This document shows, one piece after another, positions 1,099 to 25,867 of a DNA stretch of 25,869 bases. The DNA is from a virus. The stretch is from IMG/VR virus record IMGVR_UViG_3300001589_000005, positions 46,028 to 71,896 of that record. One strand, given 5' to 3'. The translations under genes were made by a program, and so were the position numbers. How positions within the stretch are numbered: position 1 is the stretch's first letter; every line of letters begins with the position of its first letter. Below the pieces are notes generated by a model. The model was given only the letters and a program-made list of their open reading frames with translations. It did not search any database and was not told where the DNA came from.

Positions 1099-2716
1099 TC
1101 CAAATCTTAAAAAAGCAAACGTACAGCAGGAGTGGACTAAACACGAACTGCAAGAATACGCTAGTTGTATGGAAGATCCTATATACTTTATACAAAATTA
1201 TGTAAGAATTGTATCACTTGATGAGGGTCTAATACCTTTTAAAATGTATCCATTTCAGAAAGAGATGGTTGGTACATTCCACAATAATCGTTTTACTATT
1301 TGTAAACTACCCAGACAGTCTGGTAAGTCTACTGTTATGGTTTCTTATCTATTACACTATGCTTTATTTAATCCAGCAGTTAATATTGCTATACTTGCAA
1401 ACAAGGCCGCAACTGCGAGAGATTTATTGGGGAGACTGCAACTTGCGTATGAACATCTTCCCAAGTGGTTACAACAAGGTGTTATGTCTTGGAACAAAGG
1501 AAGTCTTGAACTTGAAAATGGTTCTAAAATTTTGGCATCATCTACTTCAGCATCTGCCGTTCGTGGTGGTTCTTATAATATTATTTTCTTGGATGAGTTT
1601 GCATATGTACCCAGCAACGTAGCAGAACAATTTTTTAGTTCTGTGTATCCCACGATTTCCTCTGGTAAAACAACTAAGGTTATGATTGTTTCCACACCAC
1701 ATGGTATGAATATGTTCTATAAGATATGGACAGAAGCAGAAGAAAAAAGAAACAGTTACATCCCTATTGAAGTTCACTGGTCAGAAGTGCCTGGCCGTGA
1801 TGAGAAATGGAAGAAAGAAACTATTGCGAATACAAGTGAACAACAGTTTAACACAGAGTTTGAGTGTGAGTTTTTAGGTTCTATTGATACACTCATTTCG
1901 CCACGCAAACTAAGAGAACTTGCATATAAGACACCGATACAATCTAATAAAGGTTTGGATGTTTATTATCCACCAGAAAAAGAACATACTTATTTTATGA
2001 CGGTGGACGTTGCAAGAGGAGTAGAGAGTGATTACTCGGCCTTTGTTGTTTTTGACGTAACACAGATACCATATAAAATATGTGCGAAGTACAGAGATAA
2101 CGAAATAAAACCACTATTGTTCCCACAAAAAATATATGATGTTGCAAGAGCATATAATCAAGCATTTATTTTGGTAGAGGTAAATGATATCGGTGAACAA
2201 GTTGCTAATACATTACAGTTTGATTTAGAATATGATAATCTAGTTATGGCGTCTATGAGAGGTCGTGCTGGACAAATCATGGGTGGTGGATTTAGTGGTG
2301 GTAAGGCACAGTTGGGTGTAAGAACAACTAAAGCAGTTAAGAAGATTGGTTGTTCTAATCTAAAACAGATGATTGAAGATAATAAAATGATAGTACAAGA
2401 CTATGATATGATAAACGAATTATCTACATTTGTAGTAAAGGGGCAATCCTTTCAGGCAGATGAGGGTTGTAATGATGATTTAGTTGCATGTTTGTTTATG
2501 TTTGCATGGTCAATTGACCAAACATATTTTAAAGAATTAACTAATATGGACATGCGAGAACGTATGTTACAAGAAAATAAAGATCAGATAGAACAAGACA
2601 TGGCTCCTTTTGGGTTCATAGTGGACGGTTTAGAGGATGAAAACATTGGGGAGATGGTAGATGAATATGGAACAAAGTGGAATCCAATTGTTAGAGACTA
2701 TTCATCCAATTGGTAA
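1079..2716 (+). CDS. 17: Terminase large subunit gp17 (packaging ATPase/nuclease)
   Basis: 545 residues, a little shorter than T4 gp17 (610). The N-terminal ATPase has Walker A PRQSGKST (residues 78-85), Walker B IIFLDEFA (168-175, Asp172/Glu173) and the coupling motif STPHG (205-209). The C-terminal RNase H-like nuclease carries acidic residues at FMTVDVARG (Asp310), at VEVND in the middle of the domain, and in GCNDDLVA near the end. It docks on the portal gp20, pumps DNA into the prohead and cuts headful ends. The ATG at 1079 overlaps the preceding sulfotransferase-like gene by 20 bases and has only a weak purine-rich ribosome site, so coupling to upstream translation is likely. The 3' end overlaps the next gene. 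Confidence 0.97.
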   Translation: METYLGNPNLKKANVQQEWTKHELQEYASCMEDPIYFIQNYVRIVSLDEGLIPFKMYPFQKEMVGTFHNNRFTICKLPRQSGKSTVMVSYLLHYALFNPAVNIAILANKAATARDLLGRLQLAYEHLPKWLQQGVMSWNKGSLELENGSKILASSTSASAVRGGSYNIIFLDEFAYVPSNVAEQFFSSVYPTISSGKTTKVMIVSTPHGMNMFYKIWTEAEEKRNSYIPIEVHWSEVPGRDEKWKKETIANTSEQQFNTEFECEFLGSIDTLISPRKLRELAYKTPIQSNKGLDVYYPPEKEHTYFMTVDVARGVESDYSAFVVFDVTQIPYKICAKYRDNEIKPLLFPQKIYDVARAYNQAFILVEVNDIGEQVANTLQFDLEYDNLVMASMRGRAGQIMGGGFSGGKAQLGVRTTKAVKKIGCSNLKQMIEDNKMIVQDYDMINELSTFVVKGQSFQADEGCNDDLVACLFMFAWSIDQTYFKELTNMDMRERMLQENKDQIEQDMAPFGFIVDGLEDENIGEMVDEYGTKWNPIVRDYSSNW

Positions 2717-3209
2717 AGTTAAATTAAATATACCTATTGAAAAAAGAAAACTAATAAAAAACATAATAAAAGATGATACATATAATTTAAAAACAATTGG
2801 TGGTTATAAATCTAATATTATTACAGATTACAGAACAACATGGCATATGCATGACATACATGAACTCTTTGGTGAAATATCAGATAAAACATTGGATGTA
2901 GTAAGAGGATTCACTGGTAACGATAAATTATGTGCTGGAGAATGTTGGGGTGCAATATATCAAAAAGGAGATAAAGCAAAATCACACATACATAGTGTTA
3001 TATGGGCATGGACTTACTATGCAGAATGTTGTCCTAAGTGTTCACCTTTAGTATTTGAAAGAAGAAATATAGAAATTAAACCAGAGGAAGATTATTTGAT
3101 ATTTTGGAATGGAATACTTCCAAATGATAAATACCATTATAACACACATTGTGTACCACCACAAGAATGTGAACATGACAGAGTGATGATTGCTGGAAAT
3201 ATTGATTAG
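2661..3209 (+). CDS. 2OG-Fe(II) oxygenase-like protein
   Basis: 182 residues. The second half reads like the double-stranded beta-helix oxygenases common in marine phages: HIHSVIWAWTYY supplies the first metal-binding histidines, PLVFERR and YLIFWNGILP follow as core strands, and a distal His near NTHCVPP with Arg in HDRVMIAGN would give the remaining iron and 2-oxoglutarate contacts. It has several cysteines (ECCPKC) that could bind a second metal. Members hydroxylate proteins or small molecules using Fe(II), oxygen and 2-oxoglutarate; the substrate here is unknown. The ATG at 2661 lies inside gp17 (56-base overlap) but has GGGGAG at 2648-2653 with good spacing. The stop overlaps the stop of the convergent minus-strand gene. 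Confidence 0.6.
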   Translation: MNMEQSGIQLLETIHPIGKVKLNIPIEKRKLIKNIIKDDTYNLKTIGGYKSNIITDYRTTWHMHDIHELFGEISDKTLDVVRGFTGNDKLCAGECWGAIYQKGDKAKSHIHSVIWAWTYYAECCPKCSPLVFERRNIEIKPEEDYLIFWNGILPNDKYHYNTHCVPPQECEHDRVMIAGNID

Positions 3210-9088: not shown

Positions 9089-9733
9089 ATGCGAACTGTT
9101 AAACTAATTACAGAAGATATCCAAGACGTTCAATTCATTGCAGAAGATACTGCTGATGGTAAAAAGAACTATAAGATTCGTGGTGTTTTCATGCAGGCGG
9201 ACATAAAGAACCGAAATGGCCGTGTTTATCCTATGGAAGTATTGACTAATGAAGTAAATAAGTATAGTAAAAACTTCATACAAAAAAAGAGAGCCTTTGG
9301 AGAGTTAGGTCACCCAGAAGGGCCGACTGTAAATCTGGAAAGAGCATCTCACTTGATAACATCATTAGTGCCCGAAGGTAAAAATTTTATCGGAGAGGCA
9401 AAAATAATGGACACACCTATGGGTAAGATTGTAAAAAGTCTTATGGACGAAGGTGCTACATTAGGTGTTTCATCTAGAGGTATGGGTAGTTTGCAATCCA
9501 AAGGTGGTGCAAATTATGTAAACAAAGATTTCATGCTCGCAACTGCGGCTGATATCGTTGCTGATCCATCCGCTCCATCTGCTTTCGTAGAAGGTATCAT
9601 GGAAGGAAAAGAATGGGTATGGGATAATGGAAGTTATCTTGAACCACATTTGGTGGAAATGAAACAAAGACTTGAAAGAGGAAAGGCTGCAAATCAAGCA
9701 TTAGAATTTGCTAAGTTCCTCAAAATGTTGTAA
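9089..9733 (+). CDS. 21: Prohead core protease gp21
   Basis: 214 residues (T4 gp21 212). It is a serine protease of the herpesvirus-assemblin-like S77 type. Landmarks are IKNRNGRVYP (39-48), the catalytic histidine in GELGHP (His75) and the serine in LGVSSRG (residues 125-131, Ser128/129). It is packaged in the prohead core, cuts scaffold and capsid after xxE sites, and then digests itself, making space for DNA. AAAAGG lies ahead of ATG 9089. A late box at 9051-9058 gives it its own promoter, and the next gene also has one. Confidence 0.95.
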   Translation: MRTVKLITEDIQDVQFIAEDTADGKKNYKIRGVFMQADIKNRNGRVYPMEVLTNEVNKYSKNFIQKKRAFGELGHPEGPTVNLERASHLITSLVPEGKNFIGEAKIMDTPMGKIVKSLMDEGATLGVSSRGMGSLQSKGGANYVNKDFMLATAADIVADPSAPSAFVEGIMEGKEWVWDNGSYLEPHLVEMKQRLERGKAANQALEFAKFLKML

Positions 9734-13122: not shown

Positions 13123-13548
13123 ATGACACTAGATGAATTGAAGATTCAAGTCGCAAATGACTTGGTAGTAAATGATGAAAAGTTAGATACCGAATCTCTC
13201 AAAAACCAAGAACTTTATGCAAAATATCTAGACCACAAAACTAGATACGAATTACTTTTGTACAAAGCAAAAGGAGAGTATAAAGTTATTTACAGAGATA
13301 AGTGGGAATATTACGGTGGTAAAGCTGATGCAAAAATTTATGCAACAAAACCGTTTGATTTAAAAGTATTAAAAACAGACTTATCAATATACATAGAATC
13401 CGATGAAGATATCATTCAAATCGAACATAAAATTATGTACCTTGAAACAATTGTCAAATATATTGATGGTGTTTTAAAATCTATCCAAGGTAGAGGGTGG
13501 GATATTAAAAACGCTATTGCATTTAGACAATGGGAGCATGGAATGTAA
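13123..13548 (+). CDS. uvsY: Recombination mediator UvsY
   Basis: 141 residues (T4 UvsY 137). It starts MTLDELKIQVANDLVVNDEK and ends SIQGRGWDIKNAIAFRQWEHG, which lines up with the T4 ends (MRLEDLQEELKKDV and IKSRGFAIKHIQDMRAFEAG). UvsY is a hexamer that displaces gp32 and loads the UvsX recombinase on single-stranded DNA. AAAGGA precedes the ATG, and the stop overlaps the next start as TAATG. UvsX is not in this window. Confidence 0.93.
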   Translation: MTLDELKIQVANDLVVNDEKLDTESLKNQELYAKYLDHKTRYELLLYKAKGEYKVIYRDKWEYYGGKADAKIYATKPFDLKVLKTDLSIYIESDEDIIQIEHKIMYLETIVKYIDGVLKSIQGRGWDIKNAIAFRQWEHGM

Positions 13549-14090
13549 TGTCTTACGGATGGCCTTATATAACTAAAGAAATACCACAATATTTAATAAC
13601 CATGACTATGGATAGAGTTAGGGGTGCAAAAGCAGCTCAAACTCATAATCAAACTGGAAAAATTAAAAGAGACTCCTATGTTTCTTTTATAGAAGATGCA
13701 GATATACGAGAACATTTTCTACATATTGCTAAAAAAGTTAATCAAGATGGGGGTTGGGGATTTGATATAGATGCAATAGAACCATTACAATATGGAGAGT
13801 ATCCTATAGGTGGTGAATATGGTTGGCATCAAGATGCTCACACAGAACCATATAAAGATGGTAGAGTAAGAAAAATGTCATTCTCTGTTTTTTTAAATGA
13901 CACTTTTGAAGGTGGAGAGTTTGATTTAGAAATATACTCGCCTGCTGTTAAAGATAGATATGAAACATTTCATTCATTACCAGATACAGCACTTTTCTTT
14001 AAATCTGACCAGTGGCACAGAGTTCGTCCAATTACAAACGGAATAAGAAGAAGTCTTGTGGGTTGGGTATTAGGTTCAAAATGGAAATAG
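13548..14090 (+). CDS. 2OG-Fe(II) oxygenase, PKHD/prolyl-4-hydroxylase type
   Basis: 180 residues from ATG 13548 (TAATG overlap with uvsY). An ATG six codons upstream at 13530 has no ribosome site, so the later start is preferred. Iron ligands are visible in the order of the family: YGWHQDAH gives His94 and Asp96, and QWHRVRPITNGIRRSLVGW gives the distal His157 with Arg167/168 for 2-oxoglutarate. The core strands SFSVFLND and GGEFDL are as expected. It probably hydroxylates a protein side chain, with substrate unknown. Second oxygenase of the window, from a different subfamily than the one at 2661. The end overlaps the methyltransferase start by 10 bases. Confidence 0.85.
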   Translation: MSYGWPYITKEIPQYLITMTMDRVRGAKAAQTHNQTGKIKRDSYVSFIEDADIREHFLHIAKKVNQDGGWGFDIDAIEPLQYGEYPIGGEYGWHQDAHTEPYKDGRVRKMSFSVFLNDTFEGGEFDLEIYSPAVKDRYETFHSLPDTALFFKSDQWHRVRPITNGIRRSLVGWVLGSKWK

Positions 14091-17126: not shown

Positions 17127-17293
17127 AATGTTGGTTTTGTCACACAGAATTAATATGGGGTGGTGATCATGATGTTGACGATGAGTTAAATGAAGAAGAG
17201 TTTGACATGGAAACGAATTTAACATGTCCAAACTGCGAAGCCTTTGTGTTAGTTTATCGTAAAAAAGAAATACAAGGAAGATTTAACGTATGA
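17123..17293 (+). CDS. 56-aa double zinc-knuckle protein
   Basis: A small gene bounded by ATGA overlaps on both sides: it starts inside the gp55 stop and ends inside the gp47 start. The product begins MKCWFCHTELIWGGDHD, giving Cys3-X2-Cys6, and has TCPNCEAF later, giving Cys35-X2-Cys38: a four-cysteine zinc ribbon with a 28-residue acidic loop between the pairs. The rest is short and charged (VYRKKEIQGRF). Such ribbons bind nucleic acid or polymerase, but no function is recognised. The tight coupling indicates a real gene. Overlap with gp55 suggests coordinated expression. Confidence 0.8.
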   Translation: MKCWFCHTELIWGGDHDVDDELNEEEFDMETNLTCPNCEAFVLVYRKKEIQGRFNV

Positions 17294-18351
17294 AAATTGC
17301 TTTAGTAACCGACACTCATTTTGGTGCTCGGAATGATAATATATTTTTTGACGATTACTTTTATAAGTTTTATGAAGGAATATTTTTTCCATATCTACAA
17401 CAACATAATATAAAACACTGCATCCATCTCGGCGATGTGATGGATAGAAGGAAGTATATTTCCTATAGAACTGCAAAAAACTTTAGAGAAAGATTTCTTT
17501 TACCTTTTAATGTCTTAGATATTAACTTACATATGTTAGTTGGTAATCACGATATCTATTTTAAAAATACAAATGATGTAAACTCTTTGCAAGAACTTAT
17601 AGGTACTAACTATAAAAACATTCGTATGTATGCAGAACCAGAAACCGTGGACTTTGGTGGTATGCCTATTCTTATGTTACCTTGGATTAATCCATCAAAT
17701 GAAATATATTCATTTGGTATGATTGATGAAACACCAGCAACGGTTTGTATGTCTCATTTAGAACTTAAAGGGTTTGAAATGCATGCTGGACATGTATCGG
17801 AAACTGGTTGGGAAAAGAAAGAGTTTCAAAAATTTGATACTGTATTTTCTGGTCACTTTCATAAGAAATCAGATGATGGACAAGTGTTTTATTTGGGAAC
17901 ACCATATCAGATGACATGGAGTGATTATGGATGTCCAAAAGGGTTTCATATATTTGATACAGAAACTAGAGAATTGACTAGAATAGAAAATCCTCATCAA
18001 ATATTTCAAAAGATATATTATGATGATTCTATGAAGAATTATGATAACCACGATTTTACACAATATGCAAACAAGTATGTAAAACTCATTGTTGTAAATA
18101 AAAAAGATTTATATACATTTGATAAGTTTACGGAGAAACTTTTAAAAGCAGATGCACATGAAGTAAAAATTGTAGAAGATTTTTCAGAATTAAATGCTAA
18201 CAATGTATCAGATGAAATTGTAGAAGGAACACAAGACACACTTACAATTTTAGATAGGTATGTAGATGACTTATCAATTGACTTAAATAAAAAGAAACTA
18301 AAATACATTATGAAACAACTATACACAGAAGCACAAGACTTAGAAATATGA
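17290..18351 (+). CDS. 47: Recombination endonuclease subunit gp47 (SbcD/Mre11-like)
   Basis: 353 residues (T4 gp47 339). Metallophosphoesterase motifs are in order: DTHFG (Asp8, His10), GDVMDRR (Asp49 onward), GNHD (85-88), SHLE (His156) and GHFH (188-191). With gp46 it forms the Mre11/Rad50-type complex that resects double-strand ends to load UvsX. CAAGGAAG lies upstream of ATG 17290, which overlaps the preceding small gene as ATGA. The partner gene gp46 follows 687 bases later, with two unrelated genes between them. Confidence 0.95.
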   Translation: MKIALVTDTHFGARNDNIFFDDYFYKFYEGIFFPYLQQHNIKHCIHLGDVMDRRKYISYRTAKNFRERFLLPFNVLDINLHMLVGNHDIYFKNTNDVNSLQELIGTNYKNIRMYAEPETVDFGGMPILMLPWINPSNEIYSFGMIDETPATVCMSHLELKGFEMHAGHVSETGWEKKEFQKFDTVFSGHFHKKSDDGQVFYLGTPYQMTWSDYGCPKGFHIFDTETRELTRIENPHQIFQKIYYDDSMKNYDNHDFTQYANKYVKLIVVNKKDLYTFDKFTEKLLKADAHEVKIVEDFSELNANNVSDEIVEGTQDTLTILDRYVDDLSIDLNKKKLKYIMKQLYTEAQDLEI

Positions 18352-18820: not shown

Positions 18821-19041
18821 TGGTTCGTGATACTGGTGAAGGGTATCATGACAGCGTGGATGTAAAAATTAAACTATCTAATGCTGGTTTCTTATATGAT
18901 GTTGACTATATTATTATGGATGTTCCTAATATAGTGAATATTACATATGGAAGAGATGTTGGTTATAAGATTGAACAAGAACATTTTGATGAAGAAATTG
19001 AAAGTATATCTGCAACAGAGATTAGGGGGATACCAGTTTGA
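18709..19041 (+). CDS. HxGH nucleotidyltransferase-like protein
   Basis: 110 residues. GRFQPWHDGHTELFKRA gives the HxGH signature (His18, Gly20, His21) and SISATEIRG (99-107) the ISSTxIR-like motif of the cytidylyltransferase/adenylyltransferase superfamily, whose members transfer a nucleotide to a phosphorylated or sulfur acceptor. A RDTGEGYHD segment lies in between. AAGGA sits 8 bases before ATG 18709, so it can be translated alone, but its first 112 bases lie within the kinase gene one frame back. It is too short for a complete ATP sulfurylase, and the substrate cannot be read from the sequence. Its stop overlaps the gp46 start as TTGA. Confidence 0.65.
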   Translation: MDSRKPTVQMLGRFQPWHDGHTELFKRAHSKTGQVAIMVRDTGEGYHDSVDVKIKLSNAGFLYDVDYIIMDVPNIVNITYGRDVGYKIEQEHFDEEIESISATEIRGIPV

Positions 19042-20744
19042 TTATATTTAAGAATGTGAAGTGGAAGAATTTTTTATCAACTGGCAATACTAGTACAAGT
19101 ATTGATTTAGACAGAAACCCACAAACACTTATTGTTGGAGATAACGGTGCTGGTAAGTCTACAATACTAGATGCACTATGTTTTGGTTTGTTTGGTAAAC
19201 CATTTAGAGTGATTAGTAAAAATCAATTGATTAATTCTATTAATGGTAGTGGTACAGAAGTAGAAGTTACATTTCAAATCGGAACAAAAAACTACAAAGT
19301 ATTTAGAAGTATCAAACCAAATAAGTTTGAAATCTATTGTGATGATGTAATGGTGAATCAAGAAGCGCATGCTAGAGATTATCAAAAGATACTAGAACAA
19401 CAAATTCTAAAACTAAACTATGGTTCTTTCACACAAGTGGTAATACTTGGTAGTGCATCATGGGCTCCGTTTATGCAACTTAAAGCAATGAAAAGAAGAG
19501 AAGTTGTTGAAGAGATATTAGATATAAAAATCTTTTCAATGATGAATATGATTGTAAAAACACACATAAAGAATATTGTAGATGAAACTAGAGAAGTTTC
19601 ACATAAGTTTGAGGTTACACAAACAGAATTTGATTTATCTAGTAAGTATATCAATGAAAGTAAAAGTGAAAAAGCAAAACTAAGAACTGATAAGAAAAGA
19701 CAGATAGAACAAAATAAAAAAGAAATAGGTAGAAGAGAGAATGAAATTGATGAATTAAAATCTAAAAAAGAAGAATATCTAGGGCAGATTTTGGATGCAA
19801 ATAAAGTAGAACAAAAAATACAGAAGATGTTGGGTATTCGTGCTACTCTAGTAGAGAAACATAAAAGTCATAGTAAATCAGTTGATTTTTTTAAAGACAA
19901 TGAAACATGTCCGACATGTGATCAAGAAATCGCTCAAACATTTAAAGATGAAATCCTCTCTACTAAACAAGGAGAACTTGACGAACTAGAAGATGGTATG
20001 AAACAACTCAAACAAGAGATGGAAAATACTCAAAAAAGACAAGAAGAGATAGAAACTAATACTCAAAATATTAGAGAGTTAGATGTGAAAATATCTTCTA
20101 TAGGGTATTCTAAATCAGAGTTGGAAAAGTTTAATGTTAAACTAGAAACAGAACTAACACAGTTAGATAGTAACGAAAAGTCAGCAGATGAAACTAACTT
20201 AGACGGTTTACAAACTAAATTAGATGAGTTAGATAAACAACAATCATCTTTAAAAGATGAACAACAATATAATGAAGCTGCAAAAGCAATGTTACAAGAT
20301 ACTGGAATCAAGACTAAGATTATTAAACAGTATCTTCCTATCATGAATAAACTAATTAATGCTTACTTACAATCTATGGAATTTTATGTAAACTTTAATT
20401 TAGATGAAAACTTTAATGAAACTATTAAGTCTAGATTCCGTGATGATTTTAATTATGCTTCATTTAGTGAGGGTGAGAAAATGCGAATAGACCTCGCATT
20501 ACTATTTACTTGGCGTGCAATTGCAAAAATGAAAAACTCTACGAATACTAATCTATTAATACTTGATGAAATATTTGATAGTTCACTAGATGGAACTGGA
20601 ACAGAAGAGTTCTTAAAAATACTGGGAACTTTAGAAAATGAAAACATATTTGTTATATCACATAAGGGTGACCAATTAACAGACAAATTTAGAAACTCAA
20701 TAAGATTTGAGAAGATAAGAAACTTTAGTCATGTTGCTGCTTAA
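19038..20744 (+). CDS. 46: Recombination endonuclease subunit gp46 (SbcC/Rad50-like)
   Basis: 568 residues (T4 gp46 560), starting with TTG 19038 behind a strong AGGGGGA site and overlapping the previous stop as TTGA. Walker A is VGDNGAGKST, the zinc hook is CPTC (residues 291-294) between two coiled-coil arms, the ABC signature is FSEGEKMRID and Walker B LLILDEIFDSSLDG. It is the ATPase partner of gp47. TAATG overlap with the next gene shows continued coupling. The use of TTG as start is rare among the genes here and may hold the level below that of neighbours. Confidence 0.95.
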   Translation: MIIFKNVKWKNFLSTGNTSTSIDLDRNPQTLIVGDNGAGKSTILDALCFGLFGKPFRVISKNQLINSINGSGTEVEVTFQIGTKNYKVFRSIKPNKFEIYCDDVMVNQEAHARDYQKILEQQILKLNYGSFTQVVILGSASWAPFMQLKAMKRREVVEEILDIKIFSMMNMIVKTHIKNIVDETREVSHKFEVTQTEFDLSSKYINESKSEKAKLRTDKKRQIEQNKKEIGRRENEIDELKSKKEEYLGQILDANKVEQKIQKMLGIRATLVEKHKSHSKSVDFFKDNETCPTCDQEIAQTFKDEILSTKQGELDELEDGMKQLKQEMENTQKRQEEIETNTQNIRELDVKISSIGYSKSELEKFNVKLETELTQLDSNEKSADETNLDGLQTKLDELDKQQSSLKDEQQYNEAAKAMLQDTGIKTKIIKQYLPIMNKLINAYLQSMEFYVNFNLDENFNETIKSRFRDDFNYASFSEGEKMRIDLALLFTWRAIAKMKNSTNTNLLILDEIFDSSLDGTGTEEFLKILGTLENENIFVISHKGDQLTDKFRNSIRFEKIRNFSHVAA

Positions 20745-21277
20745 TGGGTAAGAGGAGTGATTTTGAAAGAGTCGAGAGGGATTTTTATCCTACACCTTGG
20801 CAAGCAGTAGAACCTCTTGTTCCACATTTACCAGAGGAGTTTGCATTTGCTGAACCTTGTGCTGGTGATGGTGCATTGGTAAATCATATTGAAACTTTGA
20901 TGGAAGGTGGTTGGTGTTCATGGGCATCAGATATTGAACCACAGAAAAAAAGTATTATTAATAAACACTTTAGAGATTTGGGTGAACATGAGTTTTTAGA
21001 AGCTGATTATATCATTACAAATCCGCCTTGGGATAGAAAACTATTACATCCTATGATTGAATACTTTACTGCATTTAGACCTACATGGTTATTGTTTGAT
21101 GCTGATTGGATACATACTAAACAGAGTGTTCAATATCTACCACTTTTAAAAAAGATAGTAAGTATTGGTAGAGTGCAATGGATACCAGACAGTAATTCCA
21201 CAGGCAAAGATAATTGTTGTTGGTATTTGTTTAGTAAGGGTGATTCACAACTAATTCAATTTGTGGGGAGAAAATAA
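20744..21277 (+). CDS. DNA adenine methyltransferase-like protein
   Basis: 177 residues. After RDFYPTPWQAVEPLVPHLPE comes motif I FAEPCAGDGALV and motif IV DYIITNPPWDR, the SAM-binding and catalytic NPPW pattern of N6-adenine methyltransferases. No target-recognition domain can be seen and the protein is short, so it may be a minimal enzyme or have another N-methylation target. Start ATG 20744 overlaps the gp46 stop, and its own stop overlaps the SGNH gene as TAATG. It may protect phage DNA from host restriction, but this is inference. Confidence 0.7.
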   Translation: MGKRSDFERVERDFYPTPWQAVEPLVPHLPEEFAFAEPCAGDGALVNHIETLMEGGWCSWASDIEPQKKSIINKHFRDLGEHEFLEADYIITNPPWDRKLLHPMIEYFTAFRPTWLLFDADWIHTKQSVQYLPLLKKIVSIGRVQWIPDSNSTGKDNCCWYLFSKGDSQLIQFVGRK

Positions 21278-22140
21278 TGGGGAAAAAAGTTTTAGTCTGT
21301 ATTGGTGATAGCTGGACAGATGATAATTTTAACAGTTCTGTTTATCCAGATATGGATACTAATTGGCCTAAATGGCCAAAACATCTTGCTGATATGTTAG
21401 ATATGGAAGTCTTAAATCTAGGTACATGTGGGTCTGGTAATCAACAGATATTCAATAAAACTGTAGATGCCACAAATTATGCTGATAATATTGGTGGTGT
21501 GGTTTGTATGTGGAGCGAACCAGATAGAATTGATTTTGAAGTTCATGACCCCAAAAAACAGTGGAATGGATATAATACTATAACAAACAGCGCTTTTCTT
21601 CATTGGAGTCCTAGACGCTCAGTAGGATTAAAAAGACAGACTCATCAACCATTATTGGGGATTGATGAAATCTCTACAGCGGTTCGTAGATGGAATCAAA
21701 ATCACACAATGGTCTCAAATACAAAATTTGATCCTCTTGCAGAGCAAGTATTAGATTTAGGTATATGGCAAATGGAAACATCGTGGAGACAGAGTCTACG
21801 ATACTGGTATTCAGTTCAAAGTATTTGCGAAAATGAAAAAATACCATATTTACAGATAGTAGGAACGAATCCATTTTTTACTTGGTTAGAGGAACAAGAT
21901 TATAAGGTAGAAAGAAGAAAAGTAATAGATCATTTAATGACTACAGATTATATGCTTTCTATAAATAATGATACATTTGTCGGTTGGCCTATATTTGGAG
22001 ATATTGGTGGAGATACAGCATCATCAATAATTCACCATGAAAAGTATAGAATGGGAGTAAATGATTCGCATCCAAACGAATCAGGCCACAGATATCTGGC
22101 AGAATACCTATATAAAGAGTGGAACACCAACTGGGCGTGA
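21277..22140 (+). CDS. SGNH/GDSL-type hydrolase
   Basis: 287 residues. Block I CIGDSWTDDNF supplies the catalytic Ser12, LNLGTCGSGNQQIF the Gly and Asn oxyanion blocks, and NDSHPNESGHRYLAEYLY the Asp and His of block V. The family cleaves ester bonds in acyl or acetyl groups on lipids and polysaccharides. No signal peptide is seen, so it acts in the cytoplasm or in the virion. GGGGAG precedes the ATG, which overlaps the methyltransferase stop. It is the last gene of the gp55-gp46 unit; a 114-base spacer with a TTGACT promoter block follows. Confidence 0.8.
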   Translation: MGKKVLVCIGDSWTDDNFNSSVYPDMDTNWPKWPKHLADMLDMEVLNLGTCGSGNQQIFNKTVDATNYADNIGGVVCMWSEPDRIDFEVHDPKKQWNGYNTITNSAFLHWSPRRSVGLKRQTHQPLLGIDEISTAVRRWNQNHTMVSNTKFDPLAEQVLDLGIWQMETSWRQSLRYWYSVQSICENEKIPYLQIVGTNPFFTWLEEQDYKVERRKVIDHLMTTDYMLSINNDTFVGWPIFGDIGGDTASSIIHHEKYRMGVNDSHPNESGHRYLAEYLYKEWNTNWA

Positions 22141-22192
22141 TAGTAAGCCACTGATTTTACAGCGTTTTTTAATTCAAAAAAAGTGAAAAAAA

Positions 22193-22248
22193 GACTTGAC
22201 TTTGCCTCAAAAGTGTGTCAGCTTATATATATGATGATGATTGAGAGG
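22193..22248 (+). promoter_or_regulatory. Promoter/leader block of the VWA gene (copy A)
   Basis: Begins GACTTGAC (TTGACT at 22196-22201), continues through AGTGTGT and TATGATGA (22230-22237), and ends with the ribosome site ATTGAGAGG. The same order appears before the AAA+ gene (24546-24602), with about 56 bases matching in layout. The -10 is unclear: 17 bases after TTGACT the sequence is CAGCTT, and TATATAT lies a little later. It is probably an early/middle promoter plus leader. Confidence 0.6.
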
Positions 22249-22254
22249 AAAACT

Positions 22255-24510
22255 ATGAAAGATAAATCGAGACTTGCGAAGTTACTTGCAGAAGAAGATA
22301 TTCATGTAGTTCATAAAAAAGTAGAAACTGCTGCTTTTGACGTTAAAAATCGTGAATTGGTTTTACCTATCTGGAAAGATATGAGTGAAAGTGTTCAAGA
22401 CTTATTTACACTTCATGAGGTAGGTCATGCATTTTGGACTCCATTAGATATGTTGGAAACCGCTAGAAAGAAAAATATTGATTTTTCTTTTGTCAATGTC
22501 CTAGAAGATGTTAGAATTGAAAAGATGATACAATCTAGATACCCAGGCGGTGTTAGGTGTTTCAATCTAGGATATACTGAATTATTACAAATGGATTTTT
22601 TCAAACTCCAAGGTAAACATCTAAAATCAATGAACTTGATTGATAGAATTAATCTTCATTTTAAACATGTGTCTGATGTTCCATTTTCTGATGCAGAGAT
22701 GGAGTGGGTTCAAAAAGCAAATGAAACTAAGACTCCTAAACAAGTATTAAAACTTGCTCAAGAGTTATATGAATATATTGAACAAAACGAAGAATCCCAA
22801 GGTGATCCAGACCAAGATAATGCTGGTGCTGACGGTAAGATGAGTCAGATGCCTAGTGAGGGTAATGCTGACGCTGAATCACAAAGTGGACAAAGTTCAG
22901 ACAGTTCTGGTGGTAAAGAAGAAAACCAAGAAAACGGTGATTCTGATGACCAGAGTGAGGCTGGAGACGACCAGAACACCGACCAGACAGAACAAGGTTC
23001 AAATGGTAGTGGTGATGGTGATGATGAAAAATCTGATAAAAAAGGTTCTGAACAAGTAGTTACTAATGGTAAAGAGGGTGGTAAATCAGAAGGTAAAAAA
23101 TTCGTTGCTTCTACCGATAGTGCTTATCAACAGGCATCTAAAAAGTTTTTAGATACAAATGCTCAAGATAGAAATTATTGTTGGATACCAAAGTTAGATA
23201 ATATCAAAGATATGATTGATACGCCTGCTCAAATCCTAGAGGATTTAAGAGAGTTTTACAAAAACGATCAAAACGATACTTTCTTTCAATACACTCAACA
23301 AGAATTGAAAACTTTTCTAGACGGTTCTAAAAAAACAGTATCTTATATTACTAAAGAATTTGAGATGAAAAAAGCTGCAGATCAATACAATCGTGCTACT
23401 GTCGCAAAAACTGGTTCGTTAGATATGTCTAAGTTACATACTTACAAATACAATGAGGATTTATTTGCTAAAGTTACTAATGTGCCTGGGGCTACAAACC
23501 ACGGTTTAGTTTTCTTTTTGGATTGGTCTGGATCAATGCAAGAGAATATGAGTGGTACTATGAAACAGTTATTTAATCTTACAGAATTTTGTATGAGAAC
23601 TAAAATTCCTTTTGAGGTTTTCGCTTTCTCTGATAGGGCCTATCGAATTAAAGATAGAAGGTTTGAACAAGTATTCAAGTCTGGTGATATCAAAGTTGAT
23701 GAATTAAAATTGTTTAACTTTTTGAGTTCTTCAATGTCCAAAAAAGAACAACATGAAATGATGCATTACATGTATATGATGGGTGAAAATTGGAAGGGTT
23801 ATAGAAATTGGAGTAGACAAGGTTATCCTTTAGGAGTGATGAATTATTATCAATTAGGTGGTACACCACTTAATCATGCTATTATCGCTGCTATGAAAAT
23901 AGTTCCAGACTTTCAGAAAAAACATAATGTTCAAAAAATACACTCTGTATTTTTAACTGATGGTTATAGTCATAGAGTTGATTCTGCCTATCATGTTAGT
24001 ACGGATAAAGAAGGTCAATCTTATAATGATTGTAAATATATTGATGGTTGGAGAAGAGATGATGTTCATATTACCGATCCAATTAGTGGTGCTAAAATCA
24101 TTACTGATAGAAATGGTAGAAATGGACAAACTGTTTCACTTTTCAAGTTGTTAAAGAAAAGAGTACCTAATATGAATATTGTAGGTTTCTTTATTGCTGG
24201 TTCTGGAAAAAATGGTAGAGTTCATAAGAATATTATTGAGGACAAGTTTGGATTACACTCATATAGTGATTATGCAAAAGTTAGAGAAATCTATAAGACT
24301 CTTAGAAAAGATAATGTGGTAGTTTCTACAGAGGATGGATATGATGCATTTTATATCTTGCCTGGGGCTGGTGCAATGCAAGAATCAGAAGAGTTAGTTG
24401 TAAATCCAAACGCTAAAGTTGGTGAATTGAAGAAAGCATTTATGAAATCTTCTACTAACAAAATGGCGAATCGCCCAGTATTAAACAAGTTTGTTGGGAT
24501 GATTGCCTAA
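22255..24510 (+). CDS. VWA-domain protein with N-terminal HExxH metallopeptidase-like motif (CobT/DUF2201-like)
   Basis: 751 residues from ATG 22255, chosen because GAGAGGA lies just ahead and the TTGACT promoter sits inside the longer reading from 22183. The N-terminal part has LHEVGHAFWTP (His54-Glu55-X2-His58) with LEDVRIEK (Glu84) about 26 residues later, a zincin-like arrangement. Residues about 182-282 are a Ser/Asp/Gly/Gln/Glu-rich linker. The C-terminal VWA domain has the MIDAS elements DWSGS (423-427), GGTPLNHAI (Thr537) and FLTDGYS (Asp569). Such proteins pair with MoxR ATPases, and one follows directly. Cobaltochelatase CobT is the usual annotation; the HExxH motif argues for a VWA-metallopeptidase relative. 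Confidence 0.85.
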   Translation: MKDKSRLAKLLAEEDIHVVHKKVETAAFDVKNRELVLPIWKDMSESVQDLFTLHEVGHAFWTPLDMLETARKKNIDFSFVNVLEDVRIEKMIQSRYPGGVRCFNLGYTELLQMDFFKLQGKHLKSMNLIDRINLHFKHVSDVPFSDAEMEWVQKANETKTPKQVLKLAQELYEYIEQNEESQGDPDQDNAGADGKMSQMPSEGNADAESQSGQSSDSSGGKEENQENGDSDDQSEAGDDQNTDQTEQGSNGSGDGDDEKSDKKGSEQVVTNGKEGGKSEGKKFVASTDSAYQQASKKFLDTNAQDRNYCWIPKLDNIKDMIDTPAQILEDLREFYKNDQNDTFFQYTQQELKTFLDGSKKTVSYITKEFEMKKAADQYNRATVAKTGSLDMSKLHTYKYNEDLFAKVTNVPGATNHGLVFFLDWSGSMQENMSGTMKQLFNLTEFCMRTKIPFEVFAFSDRAYRIKDRRFEQVFKSGDIKVDELKLFNFLSSSMSKKEQHEMMHYMYMMGENWKGYRNWSRQGYPLGVMNYYQLGGTPLNHAIIAAMKIVPDFQKKHNVQKIHSVFLTDGYSHRVDSAYHVSTDKEGQSYNDCKYIDGWRRDDVHITDPISGAKIITDRNGRNGQTVSLFKLLKKRVPNMNIVGFFIAGSGKNGRVHKNIIEDKFGLHSYSDYAKVREIYKTLRKDNVVVSTEDGYDAFYILPGAGAMQESEELVVNPNAKVGELKKAFMKSSTNKMANRPVLNKFVGMIA

Positions 24511-24545
24511 TGAAAAAACCCTTTAAAATCAAGGACTTAAAAAAA

Positions 24546-24602
24546 GACTTGACAATGGGTTAAAGATGTGTTACTTTAAGGTATGATGAAAATTGAGAGA
24601 GG
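24546..24602 (+). promoter_or_regulatory. Promoter/leader block of the AAA+ gene (copy B)
   Basis: TTGACA (24549-24554), then TACTTT 17 bases later (24572-24577), TATGATGA (24582-24589) and ATTGAGAGAGG as ribosome site. It has the same plan as 22193-22248 but differs at many bases. TACTTT is a weak -10, so an alternative, such as the TATGAT that both copies share, should be considered. Confidence 0.65.
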
Positions 24603-24611
24603 TTATATATT

Positions 24612-25787
24612 ATGTATTTAAGTCCAAGAAAACAGAAGTTTGTAGATTCTGCATCTGAACAATTCGGTGCTGGTTCTATTCTGAACAAATCGCAAGTCAA
24701 AGAGATTTGTGATAAACTAGAACTGCCACTTGCTGGTTGGTTTCTAGGTCAGTGTAAAACTGGTTACAATCAATTCAAACTTCCTAATGAAGAAAAGTAT
24801 GTTACTGAAACAGTACAGACTAATACTGCGCCAGTAGAAAATACTATGGTTAATTTGGTTGCAACAAATATGGAAAAACAAAATTTAGTTCCAGAGGCCT
24901 TTGTAGGTTTTGTACCTTGGGGTCATCACTCTACAATTAAACAGATTGTAAAATCTGGTATGTTCTATCCAGTTTTTGTTACTGGATTGTCTGGTAACGG
25001 TAAAACTCTTATGATTGAACAGATTCATGCTGAACTTAAAAAAGAGTTAATCAGAGTTAACATCACAATCGAAACTGATGAAGATGATTTACTTGGTGGT
25101 TTCAGATTGGTAAATGGTGAAACTAAGTTTGTGCCTGGGCCTGTTATTGAGGCTATGGAAAAAGGTTGTACTCTTTTACTTGATGAGTGTGACTTAGGTT
25201 CTAACAAGTTACTTGCCCTTCAGCCTGTTCTTGAGGGTAAAGGTGTTTACTTGAAAAAAGTAAACAAGTGGATTACTCCTAAAAATGGTTTCAATGTGAT
25301 GGCAACTGCTAACACAAAAGGTAAAGGTTCAGATGACGGTAGGTTTATCGGAACTAACATTTTGAACGAGGCCTTCTTAGAAAGGTTTGCAATCACTATC
25401 GAACAACCATATGCTACTACTAAGACCGAAAAGAAGATCGTTATCGGTTCTATGAAAAAGTATGGAACTGTAGATGAAGTGTTTGCAGATAATCTTGTCA
25501 AGTGGGCAGAGGTTATCAGAAAGACTTTCTTTGACGGTGGAGTCGATGAAGTGATTTCGACCAGAAGGTTAGATCACATCGTTAAGGCATTCGCCATCTT
25601 CAATGACAAGATGAAGTCTATTGAACTTTGTGTTGCTAGGTTTGATGATGAAACCAAAGACTCCTTTATGGATCTTTACACTAAAATAGATAGTGGAATC
25701 GATGTTGGTTCTACTACAGATAATTCAGACGTTGATGCAGAACTTGCTGAGATGGATAAAGAGGATGATGACGAACCATCATTCTAG
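24612..25787 (+). CDS. cobS: MoxR/CobS-type AAA+ ATPase
   Basis: 391 residues. Walker A GLSGNGKT (125-132), Walker B LLLDECDL (Asp191, Glu192), sensor-1 MATANTKGKG and arginine finger NEAFLERF are in order, then a C-terminal helical region ending in an acidic tail (DAELAEMDKEDDDEPSF). MoxR-family hexamers work with a VWA partner, encoded immediately upstream, to insert metal (CobS/CobT cobaltochelatase) or remodel a protein. Marine T4-like phages almost always label this gene cobS. It has its own promoter block and a tRNA 7 bases after its stop. Whether it supports B12 synthesis or virion/host protein remodelling cannot be decided from sequence. Confidence 0.88.
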   Translation: MYLSPRKQKFVDSASEQFGAGSILNKSQVKEICDKLELPLAGWFLGQCKTGYNQFKLPNEEKYVTETVQTNTAPVENTMVNLVATNMEKQNLVPEAFVGFVPWGHHSTIKQIVKSGMFYPVFVTGLSGNGKTLMIEQIHAELKKELIRVNITIETDEDDLLGGFRLVNGETKFVPGPVIEAMEKGCTLLLDECDLGSNKLLALQPVLEGKGVYLKKVNKWITPKNGFNVMATANTKGKGSDDGRFIGTNILNEAFLERFAITIEQPYATTKTEKKIVIGSMKKYGTVDEVFADNLVKWAEVIRKTFFDGGVDEVISTRRLDHIVKAFAIFNDKMKSIELCVARFDDETKDSFMDLYTKIDSGIDVGSTTDNSDVDAELAEMDKEDDDEPSF

Positions 25788-25794
25788 GAAAAAT

Positions 25795-25867
25795 GCGGGC
25801 ATCGTATAAAGGTATTATGTCAATTTCCAAATTGAAGAAGGTGGTTCAATTCCATCTGCCCGCTCCA
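25795..25867 (+). tRNA. tRNA-Gly(UCC)-like gene with encoded CCA
   Basis: Acceptor stem GCGGGCA (25795-25801) pairs with TGCCCGC (25857-25863); discriminator T and CCA follow (25864-25867). T-arm GGTGG/CCATC (25840-25856) has a TTCAATT loop. The D-arm keeps a GG in the loop but has a weak stem. The anticodon arm (25820-25835) has TCC at 25826-25828, preceded by T and followed by AA. The whole resembles E. coli tRNA-Gly(UCC), but the arm is 16 bases instead of 17, leaving a 6-base loop in a 5-bp stem. It may be functional with an altered loop, or decaying. Confidence 0.75.

Follow-up and report, generated by a model that had tools for sequence, protein, structure and literature searches.

MoxR-type AAA+ ATPases and partner proteins with a VWA domain form several described machines. 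In NorQ-NorD, whose target is nitric oxide reductase, a finger of the VWA domain works in the AAA+ pore, a linker is stretched between the VWA and N-terminal domains, and the complex inserts iron (PMC13036017). CbbQ-CbbO is a RuBisCO activase, and the N-terminal domains of NorD and CbbO have been described as unrelated and not conserved (PMC9976466, 2023). Here we examine a phage pair of this general make-up in a 25,869-nucleotide stretch of viral DNA (“the window”), which comprises bases 46028-71896 of the 71,896-base virus record IMGVR_UViG_3300001589_000005. Surveys have counted this pair as a cobalamin auxiliary metabolic gene (PMC8651126, PMC7029224, PMC13390420), and one of them proposes that phage CobST borrows the host CobN, raising cobalamin for DNA synthesis, and judges the name “peptidase” to be a mistake (PMC8651126). 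For group 2.2 jumbo phages, a MoxR-vWA pair with an N-terminal metallopeptidase has been proposed, with a role in virion assembly (PMC7824862).

We read the pair in the window as a MoxR/VWA remodelling machine of the NorQ-NorD/CbbQ-CbbO kind, in which the VWA subunit would have an intact N-terminal zincin metallopeptidase site, and not as a cobaltochelatase; we put the probability of this reading at about 0.55. The idea of a metallopeptidase remodeller is itself not new, since it is in print for some jumbo phages (PMC7824862). What is new here is the ancestry link to CbbO and CobT, together with the replication context. The link of CbbO and CobT to the phage domain was not found in print, in literature leaving out most subscription journals.

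The VWA protein gene and the AAA+ ATPase gene are the final protein genes of the window and are followed by a tRNA gene. A preliminary description of this DNA had noted an HEVGH motif with a downstream Glu, a MIDAS (metal ion-dependent adhesion site) VWA domain and a MoxR-type ATPase encoded directly after; all are real, and HEVGH corresponds to His54-Glu55-Val-Gly-His58 as it stated. Its start of the region, 22193, is out of frame with the VWA gene. The VWA open reading frame (ORF) spans 22183-24510 (775 amino acids counted from GTG), and translation likely starts at the ATG at 22255, which is preceded by GAGAGG and gives a product of 751 amino acids, because the upstream sequence is identical in one relative (L005) yet out of frame with its gene. 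The AAA+ ORF lies 101 nucleotides after the VWA gene and has its own upstream box in this gap. The features of the pair are as follows.

22255..24510, plus strand: VWA protein gene, 751 amino acids, phrog_459 (“peptidase”; PHROG E 4.7e-194, profile 5-736 of 736)
22255..22812, plus strand: predicted N-terminal zincin-like domain, residues 1-186 (model with predicted local distance difference test (pLDDT) 92.0 and predicted template modelling score (pTM) 0.88; VIA-align matches)
22414..22428, plus strand: HEVGH, residues 54-58, in modelled helix 45-61 (H, E, H 67/67)
22495..22521, plus strand: NVLEDVRIE, residues 81-89, in helix 77-95, with Glu84 as candidate third metal ligand (N81, E84, D85, R87 67/67)
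22819..23091, plus strand: acidic linker, residues 189-279, predicted to be disordered (pLDDT <50)
23491..24507, plus strand: C-terminal VWA domain, residues 413-751 (MDN1/Rea1 MIDAS Z 15.4-17.5; NorD VWA Z 13.2-15.9)
23521..23535, plus strand: MIDAS DWSGS, residues 423-427, plus Thr537 and Asp569 (D423, S425, S427, T537, D569 67/67)
24612..25787, plus strand: MoxR-type AAA+ ATPase gene, 391 amino acids, phrog_249 (“porphyrin biosynthesis”; PHROG E 1.8e-114, profile 78-366 of 380)
24984..25007, plus strand: Walker A GLSGNGKT, residues 125-132 of the AAA+ protein (motif in 68/72 complete AAA+ relatives)
25176..25190, plus strand: Walker B LLDEC, from residue 189 of the AAA+ protein (pattern in 70/72 complete relatives)

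By sequence, this is a MoxR AAA+/VWA pair, that is, a MoxR/CbbQ-type ATPase bearing Walker A, Walker B and sensor 1 (its Asn is present in 72/72 complete relatives) next to a MIDAS VWA protein. Pfam places the AAA+ protein in AAA_5 (2.4e-16) and CbbQ_C (0.00038), and its closest solved sequences are midasin and then CobS (2.2e-22). The closest folds to the phage VWA part, those of the MDN1/Rea1 MIDAS and NorD, are VWA domains that work with AAA+ rings. A model of the full VWA protein (pLDDT 76) consists of the N-terminal domain to residue 186, the disordered segment, a long helical part and the VWA domain; across residues 182-286 of 67 aligned relatives, the median content of Asp plus Glu is 0.30 and that of Lys plus Arg 0.06. 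Sequence and model together thus predict an AAA+ ATPase, a MIDAS VWA domain, an acidic linker and a zincin-type N-terminal domain with HExxH and a downstream Glu. NorQ-NorD resembles this arrangement in its VWA fold, in the AAA+ protein (5.6e-6) and in the order N-terminal domain, linker and VWA domain.

The pair is common in marine T4-like phages. With the VWA protein as query, tblastn gave matches in 463 phage records, all at <60% identity and 409 of them spanning at least 80% of the query; for the AAA+ protein the number was 591. Among 102 loci examined, the AAA+ gene adjoins the VWA gene in 91, downstream in 88 and divergently upstream in three (L023, L024, L025); ten of the remaining 11 have <700 bases downstream, and the eleventh has an AAA+ gene 3.85 kb away. 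The phrog_459/phrog_249 pairs of cyanophages and pelagiphages belong to the same families, are arranged alike in P-SSM2, HTVC008M and Mosig, and show no difference in kind, at ~33% identity of the VWA protein to those phages.

The putative active site is strictly maintained. Both HExxH and N-x-x-E-D-x-R-[IV]-[ED] are present in 102/102 VWA relatives, as the preliminary description would have expected of related phages; these are part of 106 distinct loci, four of which were left out as partial matches (L018, L019, L106, L107), and L018 has HEVGH. The loci were found with peptide patterns free of the HExxH motif, so its conservation is more than chance, although one locus search kept the best 80 of 585, which biases the set towards closer relatives, and the set includes some near-duplicates. 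In the 67-row alignment (A2), H54, E55, H58 and the residues of the downstream motif and MIDAS listed above are invariant, and the second His and Glu84 have 20-27 residues between them. The family therefore has the zincin hallmark of HExxH plus a downstream third-ligand residue (H54, E55, H58, E84). A second HExxH-like string, HEMMH, occurs outside the site, in the VWA half of L002-L004, and is missing from L006.

The model of the N-terminal domain points to a zincin-type fold. All 22 of the 22 listed PDB matches with Z of at least 5 are metallopeptidases (Z 5.0-7.2), including ArdC (7.2), ZMPSTE24 (7.1), abylysin (6.2), BlaR1 (6.2), selecase (6.0), IrrE (5.8), BepA (5.6) and Wss1 (5.2); the tool also gives Z values of 5-7 to models that have no true match, and Foldseek with the same model returned zero matches at E ≤0.001. 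The fold argument consequently rests on the agreement in metallopeptidase class and on the invariant residues, not on Z. With these zincins the phage domain shares an HExxH helix followed by a Glu-bearing helix, whereas it differs from them in its pairing with a VWA domain and an AAA+ motor and in lacking sequence matches. The window VWA protein has no Pfam match at E ≤1, and PDB sequence searches in which this protein or profiles of it served as query gave no relevant match. CobT and NorD N-terminal domains are absent among the listed structure matches, an absence that does not exclude them. The preliminary description had pointed to DUF2201_N (PF13203), which the window protein does not match at E ≤1 and which is absent among the 25 listed of 27 Pfam families (67 members); DUF2201_N was dropped as a parent family, with no Pfam match and few loci in searches for cellular DUF2201_N proteins.

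We then considered where else this domain occurs. A profile search of 200 genomes matched 15 of them, and seven of the matched proteins (alignment A8) are CbbO-like; of the four whose surroundings were examined, all have RuBisCO large-chain genes nearby (4/4) and three a CbbQ-type ATPase (3/4). The phage and CbbO-like domains align (hhalign 95.6%, E 1.1e-8), with HEVGH falling on HMAAH and NVLED on LIED. All seven CbbO-like proteins carry H-[MT]-A-[AGS]-H and E-D-x-R, with Met or Thr where the catalytic Glu stands. Judged from these sequences, the CbbO-like proteins keep the presumed His, His and Glu ligands and lack the catalytic Glu. CbbQ-CbbO is thus similar to the phage pair in its AAA_5/CbbQ_C-type ATPase, its VWA partner and its aligning N-terminal domain, and differs in the absence of the catalytic Glu from these copies (7/7); RuBisCO was not seen around the phage pair.

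The retention of ligands in all seven CbbO-like proteins, together with the insertion of iron by NorQD (PMC13036017), could also mean that the phage protein is a non-proteolytic chaperone that binds or inserts metal, with the His-His-Glu triad holding or passing on the ion, as may be the case in NorD/CbbO relatives. We regard this as unlikely, given that Glu55, which metal binding alone does not demand, is kept in 67/67 phage sequences.

A connection to CobT is also apparent. RHEph10-type phage proteins combine a CobT-type VWA domain (hhalign 100%, E 1.5e-40) with an N-terminal domain that aligns with that of the window family (hhalign 98%, E 2.6e-13), and HExxH is present in 24 of the 26 loci examined out of 29, the other two running off contigs. 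PF06213, the model of the CobT N-terminus, matches the SSU5 (2.1e-37) and CRP-810 (2e-15) proteins over the half that contains HExxH. Direct profile comparison of the phage domain with CobT was not significant (4.7% and 3.4%), so the link needs RHEph10/SSU5-type intermediates; the intermediate set (A6) scored 44% against the CobT N-terminus and 19% against the CbbO-like set. Because the RHEph10-type, SSU5 and CRP-810 proteins bridge the phage domain to CobT, the N-terminal domain of CobT probably represents this domain after loss of its site. The choice between CobT and peptidase posed by the preliminary description therefore holds only in part: the modelled fold is on the side of the zincins, yet CobT appears to have the very same domain in a degenerate form. 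In bacterial assemblies, two further loci (L182 and L184) encode proteins with HECSH and HECGH, NALED/NCLED and a VWA motif, which might be counterparts of the pair in prophages or in the cells themselves.

The gene neighbourhood bears on the likely target. The window carries T4-type genes for terminase, sheath, tube, portal, prohead protease, scaffold, major head protein, UvsY, helicase, late sigma factor, SbcD and SbcC, and its major head protein is closest to those of Pelagibacter phage Mosig (73.8%) and the Methylophilales phages Melnitz (72.7%). The neighbours and promoter-like elements are as follows.

17290..18351, plus strand: gp47/SbcD-like nuclease, conserved neighbour (phrog_100 2e-108)
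19038..20744, plus strand: gp46/SbcC-like nuclease, conserved neighbour (phrog_77 4e-164)
22191..22200, plus strand: AAGACTTGAC box before the VWA gene, promoter-like -35 region (exact 10-mer)
24544..24553, plus strand: AAGACTTGAC box before the AAA+ gene (exact 10-mer)

The pair sits in a DNA replication/recombination cluster, apart from the virion genes. SbcC/gp46 precedes the VWA gene in 64 of the 74 loci that extend 2.5 kb or more upstream of it, the clamp gp45 follows in 50 of the 61 that extend 3.5 kb or more downstream, and the annotated order in P-SSM2, HTVC008M and Mosig is gp55-gp47-gp46-pair-gp45-gp44. The pair lies beside DNA polymerase III alpha in RHEph10, SSU5, PhiR41_1, hairong and BUCTxx99, which are probably one phage lineage and so one count, and near primase and helicase in ICP2. 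A replication context was not seen in CRP-810, Gordonia Phendrix or Listeria LP-039, and in LP-039 neither AAA+ neighbour has a D-x-S-x-S motif. No relatives of the ICP2 and Ochrobactrum proteins were confirmed in viral contigs.

The 10-mer AAGACTTGAC has two exact copies in the 71,896-base record, one ahead of each of the two genes (reversed control, 0). A looser box pattern was not enriched (9 found vs 8.11 expected), and a consensus promoter scan gave 52 sites vs 58.2 expected, with neither AAGACTTGAC box listed. By eye, TTGAC is upstream of the VWA gene in 13/18 and of the AAA+ gene in 9/15 of the relatives printed.

This setting is relevant to the role suggested for the jumbo-phage pair, that of a virion-assembly chaperone and processing protease (PMC7824862). 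That pair is alike by description, an AAA+ gene adjoining that of a vWA protein with a metallopeptidase domain fused at its N-terminus, and T4-like phages do process head proteins; it differs in coming from jumbo phages and in its virion-assembly role, whereas the present pair belongs to T4-like marine phages and a replication cluster. The window record has a separate prohead protease among its head genes (9089-9733, phrog_207), and the pair is located past gp55, gp47 and gp46, with gp45 and gp44 following it in relatives. In addition, the TTGAC boxes of many relatives resemble host sigma-70 promoters and not T4-type late promoters (by eye), and Melnitz makes a similar virion without the pair. 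We consider a virion role quite unlikely here. The preliminary proposal of an ATP-driven metallopeptidase/chaperone acting on a host or virion protein thus survives as the best reading, although a virion target is not favoured by the context, which is replication/recombination in the phages looked at.

The preliminary description had also doubted the cobaltochelatase label, and the comparisons bear this out. CobT models (TIGR01651, PF06213, PF11775) did not match the window VWA protein at E ≤1 in Pfam and NCBIfam. The AAA+ protein does match the CobS model TIGR01650 (1.3e-22), at 80.4 bits against an equivalog cut-off of 558.55 bits, and midasin outranks CobS among its solved relatives. CobN (PF02514) was found in 0/27 phage records (the record of the window and 26 more, most possibly fragments), whereas 23/27 cellular genomes with a CobT match have a CobN match. 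CobN gave no match in the E. coli control genome, yet phage PhiR41_1, whose recorded host is E. coli K-12 MG1655, encodes a relative with HEVAH beside a CobS-like gene. HExxH is kept by phages and is present in 0/20 of the best PF06213 matches of cellular genomes, that is, in cellular CobT; one weaker PF06213 match among the 27, in G028, has HECGH. Pelagibacters are not known to make B12.

CobS-CobT and the phage pair are alike in the AAA+ match, in a layout with an acidic linker and in N-terminal homology through RHEph10/SSU5-type proteins, and a phage CobN would be unneeded where the host has one. Even with these likenesses, including the CobT-type VWA of RHEph10-type proteins and PF06213 on the N-terminal halves of SSU5 and CRP-810, it is improbable that the pair supplies CobS/CobT subunits that work with host CobN to raise cobalamin for DNA synthesis (PMC8651126). 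The sequence comparisons indicate that the label is probably wrong for the phage pair. Separately, the Caulobacter vibrioides control and four other genomes (G021, G029, G088, G091) have a CobT (PF06213) match and no CobN (PF02514) match, so cellular CobT may sometimes work without CobN.

Taking the pair as a remodelling machine with a peptidase site, a mechanism can be sketched. By analogy with NorQD, the AAA+ hexamer would hold the VWA domain in its pore and twist it against the N-terminal domain through the linker, while MIDAS would grip the target. The N-terminal domain might then cut the target using a zinc ion, as the invariant Glu55 suggests. Gene context points to a target in DNA replication, recombination or early host takeover, not in the virion, and the pair may act early in infection; no expression data for the pair were found.

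Besides the fold scores and the empty Foldseek search described above, several observations weigh against this reading. In hairong (L177) and BUCTxx99 (L178), SEIAK and REVST, respectively, replace HExxH and the AAA+ partner is retained. This is an independent loss of the site in phage CobT-type proteins, so catalysis is dispensable in some relatives and the machine can serve without cutting. Melnitz, whose capsid protein is 72.7% identical, has the cluster, but neither pair gene occurs anywhere in its 141,548 bases, so this lineage can do without the pair. The neighbourhood reveals no target, and a replication cluster would also suit cobalamin for nucleotide synthesis. Finally, the phage records searched for CobN are perhaps mostly fragments.

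More broadly, we tentatively suggest that VWA proteins that partner MoxR ATPases share a single N-terminal domain, derived from a zincin and decayed to different degrees: the peptidase is intact in phages, CbbO has the metal ligands but lacks the catalytic Glu, and CobT has lost HExxH. On this scheme, which we hold to be possible rather than probable, the phage genes would encode a functional ATP-driven protease that acts during replication/recombination; its non-catalytic relatives, the activases and chelatase subunits of cells, would have retained the motor but no longer cut. Such a link would give shared ancestry to N-terminal domains that have been called unrelated (PMC9976466). The pair is widespread in marine T4-like phages, and if it is a protease or remodeller, the survey claims of viral vitamin-B12 metabolism need revision. 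Glu55 offers a single-residue test of this reading, and Melnitz a natural knock-out for comparison.

Some other genes of the window were also noted. The tRNA gene at 25795-25864 scores 48.1 bits with Rfam, and its anticodon was not readable by ARAGORN. Upstream, a 287-amino-acid ORF (21277-22140) is SGNH-hydrolase-like by eye, without a PHROG match and with relatives in 5/102 loci. The window also encodes two proteins resembling 2-oxoglutarate (2OG)-Fe(II) oxygenases (2661-3209 and 13530-14090), and genes of this type are also dispersed in the neighbourhood of the pair in P-SSM2, HTVC008M and Mosig.

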